DNA of 24,565 bases from a virus. The position numbers and the translations under genes were made by a program. The stretch lies in IMG/VR virus record IMGVR_UViG_3300042154_000664, positions 1 through 24,565 of that record. One strand, given 5' to 3'. Below are positions 10,671 through 16,020 of the stretch, piece by piece (the first letter of the stretch is position 1; each line of letters begins with the position of its first letter). The notes under the pieces were generated by a model. That model was given only the letters and a program-made list of their open reading frames with translations, searched no databases and was not told the origin of the DNA.

Positions 10671-10707
10671 GTTTGCACCAGGTTAATGTGATCAATATAT
10701 TAGCTCA

Positions 10708-10752
10708 TAGCCCCCTATATCTTTGGTTAGTTTGGTAGGGGGTTATTTTTTT
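10708..10752 (+). terminator. Strong rho-independent terminator
   Basis: TAGCCCCCTA (10708-10717) pairs with TAGGGGGTTA (10736-10745), ten pairs with one G-U, around an 18-base loop, followed by seven Ts (10746-10752). It ends the late transcript after the exonuclease gene and insulates the control region. Confidence 0.9.
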
Positions 10753-10805
10753 GCACAATAAACTGAGTAGGTTTAGTAAGCAATTCTGCCAAGATTTGTG
10801 ACGGT

Positions 10806-10862
10806 TATAGCCAACATAATAGCTAGAATGGTGGCATAATGTAAGATATAGCTAACATATTA
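10806..10862. repeat. Pair of imperfect 16-base direct repeats
   Basis: TATAGCCAACATAATA (10806-10821) and TATAGCTAACATATTA (10847-10862) differ at two positions and are 41 bases apart start to start, about four helical turns. They could be operator sites for a regulator, or chance in AT-rich DNA. Confidence 0.4.
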
Positions 10863-11033
10863 CCTACTTTTTGTAAAGTATATTTAAGGTTATATCCTGC
10901 TATACCCTGATTTTTCTGCAGTTTTTTCAGTCTATTACCTTATTTTCTTATGTTCAAATTATTGCATTTTCTATACATGATAGGTTTATATGTTCACATT
11001 CCTTATTTAGAATGATTATTGATAACGATAAAG

Positions 11034-11066
11034 TTGTATACAATTAAATGTTTGTTCGTATATTTG
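11034..11066 (+). promoter_or_regulatory. Early promoter with palindromic operator candidate
   Basis: TTG at 11034-11036 and TATATTTG at 11059-11066, separated by 22 bases, match the Bacteroidetes -33/-7 promoter form. The TTG is the left half of the perfect palindrome TTGTATACAA (11034-11043), so a dimeric protein bound there would block the promoter. It lies 35 bases before the first early gene. Confidence 0.6.
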
Positions 11067-11101
11067 AAAATAATTATTTACTAACCAATTAAAACTAACC
11101 A

Positions 11102-11278
11102 ATGACAACAGAACAAATGAAAGCTACTATTCTCCTCTATTCAATAGAGTTGAGAGATGAGTACAATGAAATGGTAGGAGCATTCGGGCATACAGATCCT
11201 GCAGCTCAACGATTACAAACCAAGTATGCAACCCTTTTAGTATTAATCGAAAAATTAGGCTTAGATGAAAATTATTGA
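11102..11278 (+). CDS. Small early hypothetical protein, 58 aa
   Basis: A 59-codon frame from ATG 11102 to TGA 11276-11278. The product is helical (TEQMKATILLYSIELRDEY, then AAQRLQTKYATLLVLIEKLG) and soluble. I do not recognise it. It is the first gene after the promoter at 11034-11066, and its leader ends AAACTAACCAATG, identical to the leader of the ERF recombinase gene at 17189. Proximity to the strongest early signal suggests an early function such as host takeover or regulation, but no domain supports a specific role. Confidence 0.65.
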   Translation: MTTEQMKATILLYSIELRDEYNEMVGAFGHTDPAAQRLQTKYATLLVLIEKLGLDENY

Positions 11279-11345
11279 TTTTATCCAGGGCTTAGCAGCC
11301 TTGACACTATTTTTAGTAGGAATGTATATATCCTGTGCACTATGA
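11265..11345 (+). CDS. Tiny single-pass membrane protein, 26 aa
   Basis: ATG 11265 lies 14 bases inside the end of the gene before, and TGA 11343-11345 overlaps the next start as ATGA. The product is MKIIDFIQGLAALTLFLVGM followed by YISCAL, one hydrophobic helix. The overlaps at both ends suggest it is translated and couples its neighbours. Function unknown; small early membrane peptides in phages are sometimes involved in superinfection exclusion, which is a guess here. Confidence 0.45.
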   Translation: MKIIDFIQGLAALTLFLVGMYISCAL

Positions 11346-11593
11346 GCTACGAGATAGATTACTTAAAAAAAGGCTACATCAATGTATGGTGGGCCTCTGA
11401 AGATGGAGGTATTATTTACACTGCTGAGTTTAGATGCTACTTTGTTGAGGAGGGCGTTTACGAGGCACTGTTAGTTGATAGTTATCAAAGAGGTAAAAAT
11501 TACATCATCTTCACACCCTTGACTAGCAGAGAGCTAGAAGAGACAACCCAACTTGTAGAAGAGTGGGCTTACAATAACCCTGAATGTATCTAA
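11342..11593 (+). CDS. Hypothetical early protein, 83 aa
   Basis: This acidic 83-residue protein starts in an ATGA overlap with the tiny membrane gene. It alternates short strands and loops (YINVWWASEDGGIIYTAEF, then VYEALLVDSYQRG) and ends in an acidic helix (SRELEETTQLVEEWAYN). No membrane segment, signal or recognised domain is seen. The compact acidic character resembles small phage early proteins, some of which mimic DNA or bind host enzymes, but nothing in the sequence proves this. Confidence 0.6.
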   Translation: MSYEIDYLKKGYINVWWASEDGGIIYTAEFRCYFVEEGVYEALLVDSYQRGKNYIIFTPLTSRELEETTQLVEEWAYNNPECI

Positions 11594-12696: not shown

Positions 12697-12916
12697 TCTA
12701 AGAGATCACATCTTTATGGCACTAGAAAGATTATCTGATGAGGATATGACAAATGAGAAAATACAGCAGGAAGTCGAAAAGGCTAAGGCAATAGCTCAAC
12801 TGAGCTCATCTATTATAGCCAGTGCAAAAATAGAAATTGATTATATCAATGCAGTGGGATTAGTGGATAGTCAAAGTGAGCTGTTCAAATCAGTTAATCC
12901 TAAACTACTAACATGA
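12674..12916 (+). CDS. Conserved small phage protein, 80 aa
   Basis: This 80-residue helical protein (LSDLRDHIFMALERLSDEDM, then EVEKAKAIAQLSSSIIASAK and EIDYINAVG) belongs to a widely distributed phage family that I recognise by its 'L.DLR.HLF..LE.L.DE.....E...AKAIA...' pattern and usually find beside HNH or regulatory genes. Its function is unknown to me. It is probably a helical oligomer. It begins inside the HNH-like gene and its stop overlaps the DnaA-like gene as ATGA, placing it in the same tightly coupled unit as the putative replication initiator. Confidence 0.7.
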   Translation: MANNKLSDLRDHIFMALERLSDEDMTNEKIQQEVEKAKAIAQLSSSIIASAKIEIDYINAVGLVDSQSELFKSVNPKLLT

Positions 12917-13275
12917 CCAGACTAGAAGAGGTCCAGGCTATCATAGATAAGCACGATCTAAAACAAAAAAGCAGGTATATGTATGTACTTTACAAAAGGT
13001 ATTACCTCTATAAGGTGCTCAAAAGGGATGGCATGACACTATCTCAGATTGGTAGGCTGTTTGAACAAACACACGCAACTGTCATAAATGGGATAGCTAA
13101 GCATGACACGTACTCAAAGTATAAAGACAGTGCTTATATGATGCATACCTTAGAATTAAGGGAGAAGTTTGTGCTACCACAATACTACAAACCATTAAAG
13201 CAGAGGGTGTTAGAGTGTGTTAGCCTGGAGAAATTAGAGAAACTTAAAGAGCAGATTAGATGCAATTATTACTAA
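12913..13275 (+). CDS. DnaA domain-IV-like DNA-binding protein, candidate replication initiator
   Basis: This 120-residue protein has a central segment, about 24-70, that resembles the DnaA C-terminal DNA-binding domain: a first helix (YKRYYLYKVLKRDG), then MTLSQIGRLFEQTHATVING, where LSQIG (43-47) and HATV (54-57) match the DnaA signature in which a (D/T)H(S/T/A)TV helix reads the DNA. The AAA+ ATPase part of DnaA is absent. The C-terminal 40 residues are helical and basic. The gene ends three bases before a cluster of seven GTGCAAAGT-type iterons and 390 bases before the primase-helicase gene, so it is a good candidate to bind those iterons. It could alternatively be a transcription regulator. 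Confidence 0.65.
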   Translation: MTRLEEVQAIIDKHDLKQKSRYMYVLYKRYYLYKVLKRDGMTLSQIGRLFEQTHATVINGIAKHDTYSKYKDSAYMMHTLELREKFVLPQYYKPLKQRVLECVSLEKLEKLKEQIRCNYY

Positions 13276-13277
13276 TA

Positions 13278-13499
13278 GTGCAAAGTGAAAATAGTAAAAA
13301 TAAGTTTGCACATAAGTTTGCACAAAAAATAGTATTGATTATCAGATACTTAAGGGCAAAAGTGCAAAGTTTTGATAAAAAGCCCCTACCCTATATATAA
13401 TGTACTACCACTTGAAAAAAAAAAAAGTAAAAAAAAAGTCAAACTTTGCACAAAGCCACGCCAGTACTAGGGGAAGGTGTGCAAAGTGGGGTGCAAAGT
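13278..13499. repeat. Cluster of seven iterons, GTGCAAAGT core
   Basis: Forward GTGCAAAGT at 13278-13286, 13362-13370, 13479-13487 and 13491-13499. Reverse ACTTTGCAC at 13443-13451 and AGTTTGCAC at 13303-13311 and 13315-13323. The last two are parts of a perfect 12-base tandem repeat, TAAGTTTGCACA (13301-13324). The final forward pair is spaced 12 bases, close to one helical turn. Confidence 0.75.
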
Positions 13500-13528
13500 T
13501 GATTGTTAATAAAAAAAGATTGCACATT

Positions 13529-13560
13529 TTGTATCAGTATTGAATTAATTAATATATTTG
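13529..13560 (+). promoter_or_regulatory. Host-type promoter of the primase-helicase operon
   Basis: TTG at 13529-13531, 21 bases, TATATTTG at 13553-13560, matching the Bacteroidetes promoter form. Transcription should begin around 13565, exactly where the pseudoknot-forming leader begins. Confidence 0.65.
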
Positions 13561-13564
13561 TCAA

Positions 13565-13648
13565 GATAATCACCCTGATTAACAAAACATTTTGAGAGTA
13601 TAAACCCCTGCCATCTTATCATAGGGTGATTTATCGGCAGGGGCTCTC
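13565..13648 (+). ncRNA. Predicted H-type pseudoknot in the 5' leader of the primase-helicase mRNA
   Basis: Stem 1: GATAATCACCCT (13565-13576) with AGGGTGATTTATC (13623-13635), 12 pairs with one bulged T. Stem 2: GAGAG (13594-13598) and CCCCTGCC (13605-13612) with GGCAGGGGCTCTC (13636-13648), 13 pairs with a 6-base bulge on the 5' side. The two 3' strands abut with no spacer, so the helices can stack coaxially. The structure would begin at the mRNA 5' end and finish 17 bases before the start codon. Found by eye; no folding energy was computed. Confidence 0.55.
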
Positions 13649-13665
13649 TTTAATATAGGAAAAAT

Positions 13666-16020
13666 ATGAACTTAATTGACTATGCTAATGAGCTCCAAAG
13701 TGAAGGACTTAACCCTCTACCACTTAAAGATAATAAAGCCCCAATGCTTGAAGCAGGGCATAAGTTTTTATATGAGCCTATTGATAATATAGAAAGTAGA
13801 TTTTCTAATGCTCAAAAAATAGGTATAGCCTGTGGATTAGTTAGTGAATTTTACTGTATTGATTTTGATGCTCATAATGATGAGGATATAAGTGAGATAT
13901 ATAATGATTTTGTAGCTGTACCATCTGTAGCTAATATGATTGCCGAAGGTATGCTATCCTGTTACTCTACTGCAGGTGGTGGTTATCATGTTTATTTTAG
14001 GTTAAAGGATAAGATTAACGGCCAAGTGTTTGCTAAATACAGCACAGGATCTACAATGGTAGAATTAAGAGGTAATGGGCAGTATGCTGCCTGCTATCCA
14101 TCTACAGGATATACTAAGGTAAAAGGTGATGAGTACATTAAGCTAAGTTATTTTGAGGATGATATTAATAACCTATTTGATCTAATCAAATCATATAACC
14201 AACATCACTCTATTACTTTACCTCACAAAAATACTACAGATAAAAAGTGGGCAGAGACTTGGAAAGATACTACTCCTGATGGAAAATATAACTTAGAAGG
14301 TGAGGAAGAGGCTAAGGAGCTGCTTAAGAAAATAGGTTGGCAGTTTTGTAAGAAGAGAGCTGATGGATCAGAGTATTGGACCAGGCCTAACAAAGATATT
14401 AAAGATGGCTTCTCAGCTACTTTTGGACATCAAAAGAGTATGTTCTATATCTTTAGTGAAGATGGTAGCTCTATTGAGCCCTTTAATAGCAAACAAAGCT
14501 ATTCACCATTTAACATCTACACATTAGTTAATCACCAGGGAGATTGGAAAAAAGCTAAGGATGAATTGAAATTAAGGTATAATATGCCTGATGATGACTT
14601 TTGGAGTACTACACAGAATGGAGCTTACAATTTGAATAACTTAAGATTTAAGAAGTTTCTAGATAATCATGACTTTTTTAAGAACAGCCCTGAACCTAAT
14701 GGCACATTTCAGATGATTAAAAAGGAAGGTATATTCTTAAACCAAGTATTTGAGAAGGATGTAAAAGATTACGTATTAGATTACATATTAGATAATAAGA
14801 AACCTGAAGGAGTATACAACCTGATGAGTGGCAACCTTAAGTTTTTTAAGAGGGAGTTTTTAGGCATATTGAGCAGCAGGGATATTACCCTGCTAAAAGA
14901 TACTAAAGATTGTGCATACTTATTTTATACTAACTGCATAGTTAAGGTTACACAAACTGATAAAGAGGTGCTATCTTATGCCGATATGGATCTATCTATA
15001 TGGAGAGACCAGGTGATAGATAGAGATTTTGTAAAAGTAGATCATCACAAATCAGAATTTCGCACTTTTATATGGCATATATCAGGAAAGGATAGAGATA
15101 AGTACAAAGCATTTCAGACTGTAATAGGTTACCTACTGCACAGCTATAAGGATAGAAGTAACAATAAAGCAATTATCTTTAATGATGAGGCAATATCTGA
15201 TGTGCCTAATGGTAGAAGTGGAAAGGGTTTGTTTTGGAATGCAATGGGCCATCTTAAGAAGGTGCAGAGTTTAGATGGTAAGACCTTTGATTTTCTTAAT
15301 AAGTTTCCTTATCAAAATGTATCTACTGCCTGTCAAATATTAGTATTTGATGATGTAAAAAAGAAGTTTAATTTTGAGAGCTTATTCAGTGTGATTACTG
15401 AGGGCATTACCATTGAGTACAAAGGTAAGGATAGTATAAAGCTAGATGTAACTAACAGCCCTAAGATAATCATTACCACTAACTACACCATATCAGGTAA
15501 CAGTGCATCCTTTAATGCTAGAAAGTATGAAGTAGAGATGGCTAATACATTTAGTGATAAATATACTCCTGTAGATCTATTTGGACATGAGTTATTTAAT
15601 GAGTGGGATGATCAGGAATGGGCCTGCTTTGATAACTACTGCCAGGAATGTATACAGATCTATCTTAACAAAGGGCTTATACCAATGCCTACTAAGAATT
15701 TAGAATATAGAAAGATATTAGATGATATCAGCAGTGAGATGTATTTCTTTTTTGAGGATCTAAAAGCTGATACTTTCTACTCAGTTAAAGAGGAGCTCTT
15801 TGATAGCTTTAATAATAGGTTCCCTGAGAAGAGAAGCTATACTACTCAGAATAAGATAACCATTAATTTTAGAAAGTGGTGCGAATATAAAGGATATAAG
15901 CCTGATGATAATAGGAATGGAGGAAGTACTAAGCTATCGTACAGCTTACAGGAAAAAATAGAAGAGGAAGAGGATATATGGGATGAATTAAATAAACAAG
16001 CAAATAGTATAAACAATTAA
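13666..16020 (+). CDS. Primase-polymerase / SF3 helicase, replication protein
   Basis: This 784-residue protein combines two replication activities. The N-terminal PrimPol domain (about 1-180) shows ACGLVSEFYCIDFDAHND with Asp66 and Asp68, GGGYHVYFRL with His108, and MVELRGNGQYAA around Glu133, matching the metal and catalytic positions of archaeo-eukaryotic primases. A linker of about 300 residues follows. The C-terminal superfamily 3 (D5/VirE-like) helicase has a Walker A GRSGKG (516-521, Lys520), Walker B QILVFDD (Asp562, Asp563) and sensor IIITTN (Asn606). It would prime and unwind at the phage origin. The gene follows a host-type promoter and structured leader, and starts a replication and recombination block. 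Confidence 0.85.
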   Translation: MNLIDYANELQSEGLNPLPLKDNKAPMLEAGHKFLYEPIDNIESRFSNAQKIGIACGLVSEFYCIDFDAHNDEDISEIYNDFVAVPSVANMIAEGMLSCYSTAGGGYHVYFRLKDKINGQVFAKYSTGSTMVELRGNGQYAACYPSTGYTKVKGDEYIKLSYFEDDINNLFDLIKSYNQHHSITLPHKNTTDKKWAETWKDTTPDGKYNLEGEEEAKELLKKIGWQFCKKRADGSEYWTRPNKDIKDGFSATFGHQKSMFYIFSEDGSSIEPFNSKQSYSPFNIYTLVNHQGDWKKAKDELKLRYNMPDDDFWSTTQNGAYNLNNLRFKKFLDNHDFFKNSPEPNGTFQMIKKEGIFLNQVFEKDVKDYVLDYILDNKKPEGVYNLMSGNLKFFKREFLGILSSRDITLLKDTKDCAYLFYTNCIVKVTQTDKEVLSYADMDLSIWRDQVIDRDFVKVDHHKSEFRTFIWHISGKDRDKYKAFQTVIGYLLHSYKDRSNNKAIIFNDEAISDVPNGRSGKGLFWNAMGHLKKVQSLDGKTFDFLNKFPYQNVSTACQILVFDDVKKKFNFESLFSVITEGITIEYKGKDSIKLDVTNSPKIIITTNYTISGNSASFNARKYEVEMANTFSDKYTPVDLFGHELFNEWDDQEWACFDNYCQECIQIYLNKGLIPMPTKNLEYRKILDDISSEMYFFFEDLKADTFYSVKEELFDSFNNRFPEKRSYTTQNKITINFRKWCEYKGYKPDDNRNGGSTKLSYSLQEKIEEEEDIWDELNKQANSINN

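Follow-up and report, generated by a model that had tools for sequence, protein, structure and literature searches.

The window analyzed here is a stretch of 24,565 nt of viral DNA (IMG/VR record IMGVR_UViG_3300042154_000664). It carries a primase-helicase gene behind a promoter of Bacteroidota type, and between the two lies a leader in which two stems, S1 and S2, interlock (Table 1). Direct reading of the sequence bears out the placement given in a preliminary description of this DNA: The stems lie where it put them, their 3′ strands meet without a gap at 13635/13636, 17 nt separate the end of the fold from the ATG at 13666, and the promoter box claimed at 13553-13560 reads TATATTTG, with TTTG 21 nt upstream. 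S1 (13565-13576 with 13623-13635) has 12 pairs and one bulged T; S2 (13594-13612 with 13636-13648) has 13 pairs and a 6-nt 5′ bulge, TATAAA. The −33/−7 pair of this promoter type has five matches in the window, compared with 1.0 expected. Judging by the promoter position, S1a probably lies at the 5′ end of the transcript, and the claim that the replication-gene mRNA has a structured leader at its very 5′ end is supported.

Table 1. Features of the leader and of the gene behind it (window coordinates; leader types are described in the text)
Feature	Position	Strand	Basis or remark
Promoter, Bacteroidota type: TTTG + 21 nt + TATATTTG	13528..13560 (TTTG 13528-13531; TATATTTG 13553-13560)	+	−33/−7 pair
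S1a, GATAATCACCCT, 5′ strand of stem 1, 4 nt after promoter box	13565..13576	+	Stem scan; sequence read directly
Loop 1, 17 nt, A-rich	13577..13593	+	Sequence
S2a lower part, GAGAG	13594..13598	+	Compensated to GGAAG/CTTCC in L315, L319, and L337
6-nt bulge TATAAA, conserved; TTTAAA in some W-type leaders	13599..13604	+	Leader comparison
S2a upper part, CCCCTGCC	13605..13612	+	Covaries
Loop 2, 10 nt	13613..13622	+	Sequence
S1b, AGGGTGATTTATC, 3′ strand of stem 1, within the S2 loop; proposed regulatory antisense segment	13623..13635	+	
S2b, GGCAGGGG+CTCTC, abuts S1b directly	13636..13648	+	Sequence, covariation, folding
Spacer, 17 nt, up to the start codon; no D (second S1a copy) in the window, D here in sister types E, F, G, H, M, and N	13649..13665	+	
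Putatively controlled gene: primase-helicase with Prim-Pol (PF09250) at the N-terminus and a C-terminal part as in phrog_28855	13666..16020	+	

Comparison with shuffled sequences, a check that had been proposed beforehand, gave 0/500 dinucleotide shuffles of the leader that reached its interlocked-stem score. When the scan was slid along both strands of the window, the leader ranked first with a score of 45.5, and the best of three shuffled whole-window controls scored 43.5. Taken as one sequence alone, the leader is striking but not astronomically rare. With the promoter and the position relative to the start codon required, there is one significant leader of this kind in the window. S2 alone has a folding z of −3.0.

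The preliminary description called the fold an H-type pseudoknot. The connectivity is indeed interlocked (S1a-S2a-S1b-S2b), but the linkers are the reverse of those in the classic coaxial form, in which S2a is followed by S1b after 0-1 nt and S1b and S2b are joined by a loop long enough to cross S1. Here, S1b and S2b are separated by 0 nt and S2a and S1b by 10 nt, so that the classic coaxial arrangement is impossible with a complete 12-bp S1. If both stems are complete, stacking must go through the continuous strand 13623-13648; the helices may stack in this way, with the RNA 5′ end at their junction and loop 1 spanning both, or the two stems may alternate.

A cluster of TTTGCAC/GTGCAAA repeats (13278-13527) directly follows a gene at 12913-13275 that has a weak match to a DnaA C-terminal HTH. 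In five relatives, the 400 nt upstream of the replication gene contain 5-6 matches to these repeats, versus 0.2-0.5 per 400 nt elsewhere, and the cluster is likely to be a replication origin. An origin-linked RNA was among the functions suggested for the leader at the outset, and the iteron-like repeats and the DnaA-HTH-like gene just upstream fit a DNA or primer-RNA element of that kind rather than an mRNA leader. However, the iterons lie upstream of the promoter, and the position of the fold follows the promoter and start codon of the gene, with G-U pairs kept in both S1 and S2, as would be expected of an mRNA leader; we regard an origin-linked element as very unlikely. Elsewhere in the window, ∼670 bases (10671-11341) contain no ORF of 60 codons and have two TTTGCAC copies near their start (10672 and 10750); this is possibly a regulatory region.

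Conservation of the two stems among related leaders

The primase-helicase is encoded at 42 IMG/VR loci. Their leaders are of three types (W, B, and C) that have GAGAG-TWTAAA...CTCTC in common but wholly different S1 pairs: GATAATCACCCT/AGGGTGATTTATC in W, GAACAGCCAA/TTGGCTGTTC in B, and AACATAACTGCCA/TGGCGGTTGTGTT in C. Pattern scans found further C-type leaders before a primase with another N-terminal domain family (BT4734-like/VirE), as well as leaders before other replication-type genes (L171 and L226). In one contig, the gene at L055:8012-10369 has the same helicase-like C-terminal part (phrog_28855) as the window gene at 13666-16020, with a BT4734-like instead of a Prim-Pol N-terminus; we take this exchange of the N-terminal primase behind the same leader class to be a domain swap.

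Some 40 distinct leaders from related phages agree in the two-stem plan, in where the start site lies, and in the distance to the ATG; they come mostly from metagenomic contigs, many of them near-identical, and only ∼13 types can be called independent. The interlocked stems of 18 leaders were each matched by 0/500 shuffles; these scan scores, like the type assignments, come from our own simple stem scorer, and in some leaders the best-scoring pair differs from the named S1/S2 (in H and M, for example, S2 and the pairing of S1b with D score best). Altogether, 48 of the 120 leaders tested scored, which is not an unbiased frequency because the loci were fetched by gene or motif.

S2 covaries strongly. 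In an alignment of 14 leaders, 96% of cells are paired and 7 of the 13 pairs have changed on both sides; the covariation score was reached by 0/500 shuffles, and sliding the partner strand by 1-3 columns reduces pairing to 43%-54%. S1 was judged separately because the MAFFT alignment is out of register over S1 for some types. Within the C type, one S1 position occurs as C-G, U-G, and A-U. Across 20 leaders, the duplex between a leader's own 5′ part and its own S2 loop has an energy of −11 to −22 kcal/mol, compared with a mean of about −5 to −12 for foreign loops; in 20/20 leaders, the own pairing exceeds the foreign mean in strength, although in several related types one foreign loop pairs as well as the leader's own or better. 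It is therefore the pairing, and not the sequence, of S1 that is maintained. The search for covariation in related phages, also suggested in the preliminary description, upholds both stems: S2 by compensated change, S1 by complete rewriting with pairing kept.

In our analysis, it is this comparative evidence that is decisive for the fold. The only point for chance complementarity with no function is the shuffled whole-window control that came close to the observed score; chance is refuted by the many unrelated leaders that repeat the arrangement in the same position and with compensatory changes, and we give it practically no weight.

In B and C leaders (e.g., L013 and L046), an ATG right after S1a opens a uORF of 28-29 codons that has no counterpart in the W type. 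Its stop overlaps the gene start (ATGA) in nearly all variants, and its internal frame differs between subtypes. A conserved leader peptide was rejected as a general function, given that the W type lacks an upstream ATG and that C subtypes differ in the frame of the peptide.

Leaders with the same order of segments, from the TANNTTTG box to the ATG, also precede DUF6291 and related replication-initiator genes. The genes behind the leaders encode Prim-Pol or VirE-like primase-helicases or DUF6291 proteins, always with a TANNTTTG box upstream, and the box is at the same place in all leader types. DUF6291 has no match in the window's own record or in 14 control genomes. Among isolates, the leader occurs in the Flavobacterium phages elemoE and elemoA and in the Olleya phage Harreka_1, where it precedes a small ORF and a "replication protein" and, in the elemo phages, also the primase/helicase. 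Blastn of the leaders in named phages gave only short or promoter-sized matches; the elemoE leader was found by the stem scan. On the promoter type and the named isolates, the phages with this leader appear to infect Bacteroidota.

Broader searches added little. The pattern GTATAAACCGCC...TGGYGGC returned no new leader types but mostly one unrelated sequence family without the leader fold, and the motif pattern had three scattered matches in an 84,980-species genome collection, all in MAGs of other phyla and taken as chance. Rfam 15 gave no relevant match for the window or the related loci, at the gathering score or at a relaxed E-value, in agreement with the initial impression that this is no named riboswitch or ribozyme. 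We found no description of this leader in open-licence papers, which, for the literature so covered, points to a family so far undescribed.

Several other leaders were seen along the way. A similar interlocked two-stem leader precedes the small gene Leef1_21 of Polaribacter phage Leef_1 (L285:19407-19520), where no TANNTTTG box was seen. In an unrelated contig (L198, reverse strand), an ORF of 60 aa at 463 is preceded by an interlocked leader with ACGTGAGAGT/GCTCTCACGT as S1 and an S2 that resembles a terminator. A different conserved hairpin, GAGAGTTTAAAAAGGGCCC...GGGCCCGACTCTC, lies before various genes in other viral contigs (L075:5735; L091, reverse strand; L129:3028).

The composition of the wider class bears on two of the functions first proposed for the leader, autoregulation and ligand sensing. 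Bulged hairpins are usual sites of protein binding, and in the W, B, C, E, and F leaders conservation is highest in the bulge and lower stem; the primase-helicase or another phage protein might bind the bulged stem GAGAG-TATAAA-CC/GG-CTCTC and repress translation, with S1 as a clamp, in the manner of T4 gp32. The TATAAA bulge is, however, absent from about half of the wider class, and the S1 swaps and D copies described below would be left unexplained. Simple autoregulation by a single family of proteins is excluded, since the proteins encoded behind the same core are unrelated. Both a ligand-sensing RNA and an autoregulatory operator are less likely because only the self-complementarity of S1 is kept, S1 being wholly rewritten, and the GAGAG/TATAAA core is missing in about half of the class. 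We consider a protein operator unlikely.

Swaps of S1 and alternative partners of S1b

Two leaders allow change in S1 to be compared directly with change in the scaffold. Between L325 and L302 (CCTCTCAC/GTGAGAGG versus CATCCTAC/GTAGGATG), there are 6 differences in the 16 positions of the S1 strands, each of them compensated, versus 2 in 63 compared positions of the scaffold (P = 6e-4, Fisher's test, for one chosen pair). Similarly, the elemoA_7-9A and elemoA_2-5C leaders have flanking leader sequence and the start of the downstream gene in common, but their pairing loops are different, each internally complementary; these loops were read by eye and fall below the stem-scan thresholds. Such concentration of change in the pairing segment is a feature of antisense immunity and incompatibility determinants, as in plasmid control RNAs. 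The exchange of S1 pairs on near-identical scaffolds suggests, at the level of sequence comparison, that S1 is a specificity code.

Several sister leaders have a second copy of S1a, which we call D, whose end falls on the start codon or beside it. D is 10 nt long in type E, 9 in F and N, and 7 in G/G2, and is shorter or imperfect in H and M (by leader, 10 nt in L226, 9 in L171 and L336, and 7 in L315/L337). S1b can therefore pair either upstream with S1a or with the start site, and in the D-bearing leaders the two pairings have similar energy. Support for the D pairing in each leader is modest, with 2-32 of 500 shuffles doing as well (105/500 in one H variant), but recurrent, and the alternative pairing is found in about half of the leader types.

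A second candidate output device is a terminator-like stretch of five or more T immediately following S2b, found in types H, I, J, K, and N and in the elemo and Harreka leaders; the B leader has six T. Types C, E, F, and G have no U-run, and most of these have D instead. W and C leaders have neither. The D copies, the terminator-type variants, and the S1 swaps do not figure in the preliminary description. D is absent from the window leader and from its B and C sisters, and there is no terminator-like site in the window, its own leader included, so the output device is not seen in the window leader. A search for a remote S1b target at start codons in the window and in the B- and C-type contigs gave no consistent gene. 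An S1a-like sequence with one mismatch, AATAACCCT, occurs at 11573, just before an ORF at 11584, and may be due to chance.

These devices weigh on two simpler readings. The leader could be an attenuator only, an S2 terminator tuned in cis by S1 pairing with no trans-acting RNA, and the U-runs of the types just listed are what this would predict. The window leader has no terminator-like site, the C, E, F, and G leaders have no U-run, and a device acting only in cis gives no reason for the S1 swaps; we judge a pure attenuator to be unlikely. Alternatively, the fold might simply bury the 5′ end and shield the mRNA from decay, with no switch at all. In all bulge-type leaders, the promoter box is followed by S1a at a distance of 4-9 nt, and the continuity of S1b and S2b would place the 5′ end at the helix junction, both of which are consistent with such protection. 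It leaves unexplained the D copies, the U-runs, and the rapid, compensated turnover of S1, and we hold it to be quite unlikely.

Comparison with known leader RNAs and a proposed switch

In phage P4, the CI RNA immunity leader (seqA, cI/seqB, seqC) lies upstream of the replication genes, which include the primase-helicase alpha. The P4 CI RNA pairs with an upstream segment, seqA, and a downstream segment, seqC, and stops expression of the replication genes (PMC4825925). The leaders described here likewise lie before replication genes, in the window (Prim-Pol primase-helicase) as in its sisters (DUF6291, VirE-like), and types E, F, G, H, M, and N have all three elements: a segment complementary to one partner upstream and another downstream. 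The window leader differs in this respect, having S1a upstream but no downstream copy, as do W, B, and C leaders in general. There is also no detectable sequence or Rfam relation to P4 CI, the fold here is an interlocked two-stem one, and the hosts belong to another phylum. The order S1a-S1b-D before a replication gene is the P4 order, and we therefore read S1b as a regulatory antisense segment.

Three further systems are comparable in part. The c4 antisense RNA of phages P1/P7 (Rfam RF01695) is derived from a leader, has a target within the same transcript that overlaps a translation start further downstream, and controls an antirepressor. The proposed antisense segment resembles it in its origin from the leader and in its target at a downstream start in the same transcript, but the gene concerned is here a replication gene and not an antirepressor, and RF01695 matches neither the window nor the sister loci (the c4 and c4-a1b1 motifs are listed in PMC2864571). 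In plasmids of the IncFII/IncB type, leader RNA controls the replication initiator, and the specificity of the pairing loops diverges with compensation. These plasmids use a counter-transcript from the opposite strand, whereas no opposite-strand TANNTTTG box for such a transcript is present between 13500 and 14230. The T4 gene 32 leader contains a pseudoknot and serves autogenous translational control (PMC535899). Both are pseudoknots in the leader of a phage replication-protein mRNA; the gene 32 fold is a classic H-type with protein-specific recognition, whereas here S1 is replaced entirely between leaders and the genes behind the leaders encode unrelated proteins.

Our preferred reading, to which we assign a probability of roughly 0.45, is that the leader is a regulatory 5′ switch on the replication gene, and possibly also the source of a trans-acting RNA. 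The promoter at 13528-13560 would start the RNA at or near S1a, and S1b, exposed in the loop of the S2 hairpin, would pair back to S1a to give the interlocked fold, whose end lies just short of the start codon. S1b would be the working part. While held by S1a, it would leave the downstream start free; if S1a were lost or captured by another RNA, S1b would be released and the gene shut in cis. In sister leaders, the released S1b would pair with D at the start codon, or the terminator-like S2 hairpin would act. By the logic of the P4 leader, copies that contain S1b might also act in trans, their targets being S1a or D in sister genomes, and so bring about feedback on replication or exclusion of relatives. 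What the sequences themselves show is the two-stem plan with its conservation and covariation, its place between the promoter and the start codon of replication genes, the D pairing in about half of the types, and the S1 swaps; we infer the transcription start, the direction of the switch, the production of a small RNA, its action in trans, and the output step of the window leader.

A broader proposal is more tentative, and we put it forward as possible rather than probable. The leaders would form an unnamed, widespread family in Bacteroidota phages in which the swappable S1a/S1b code (in many leaders also with D at the start codon) amounts to RNA-based incompatibility or immunity directed at the replication gene. 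The system would have no sequence relationship to P4 CI or P1 c4, and phages that live side by side would vary their codes and so evade one another. A role in immunity would suggest temperate phages; no integrase was recognised in the families searched.

Members of the Bacteroidota naturally lack Shine-Dalgarno sequences in their mRNAs (PMC6847099), and for this phylum there are few descriptions of how phage replication is controlled post-transcriptionally. A leader switch common to unrelated replication genes would offer a general handle on the timing of replication in these phages. Should the S1 code act in trans, mutual exclusion between phages could in addition be predicted simply by reading the sequence.
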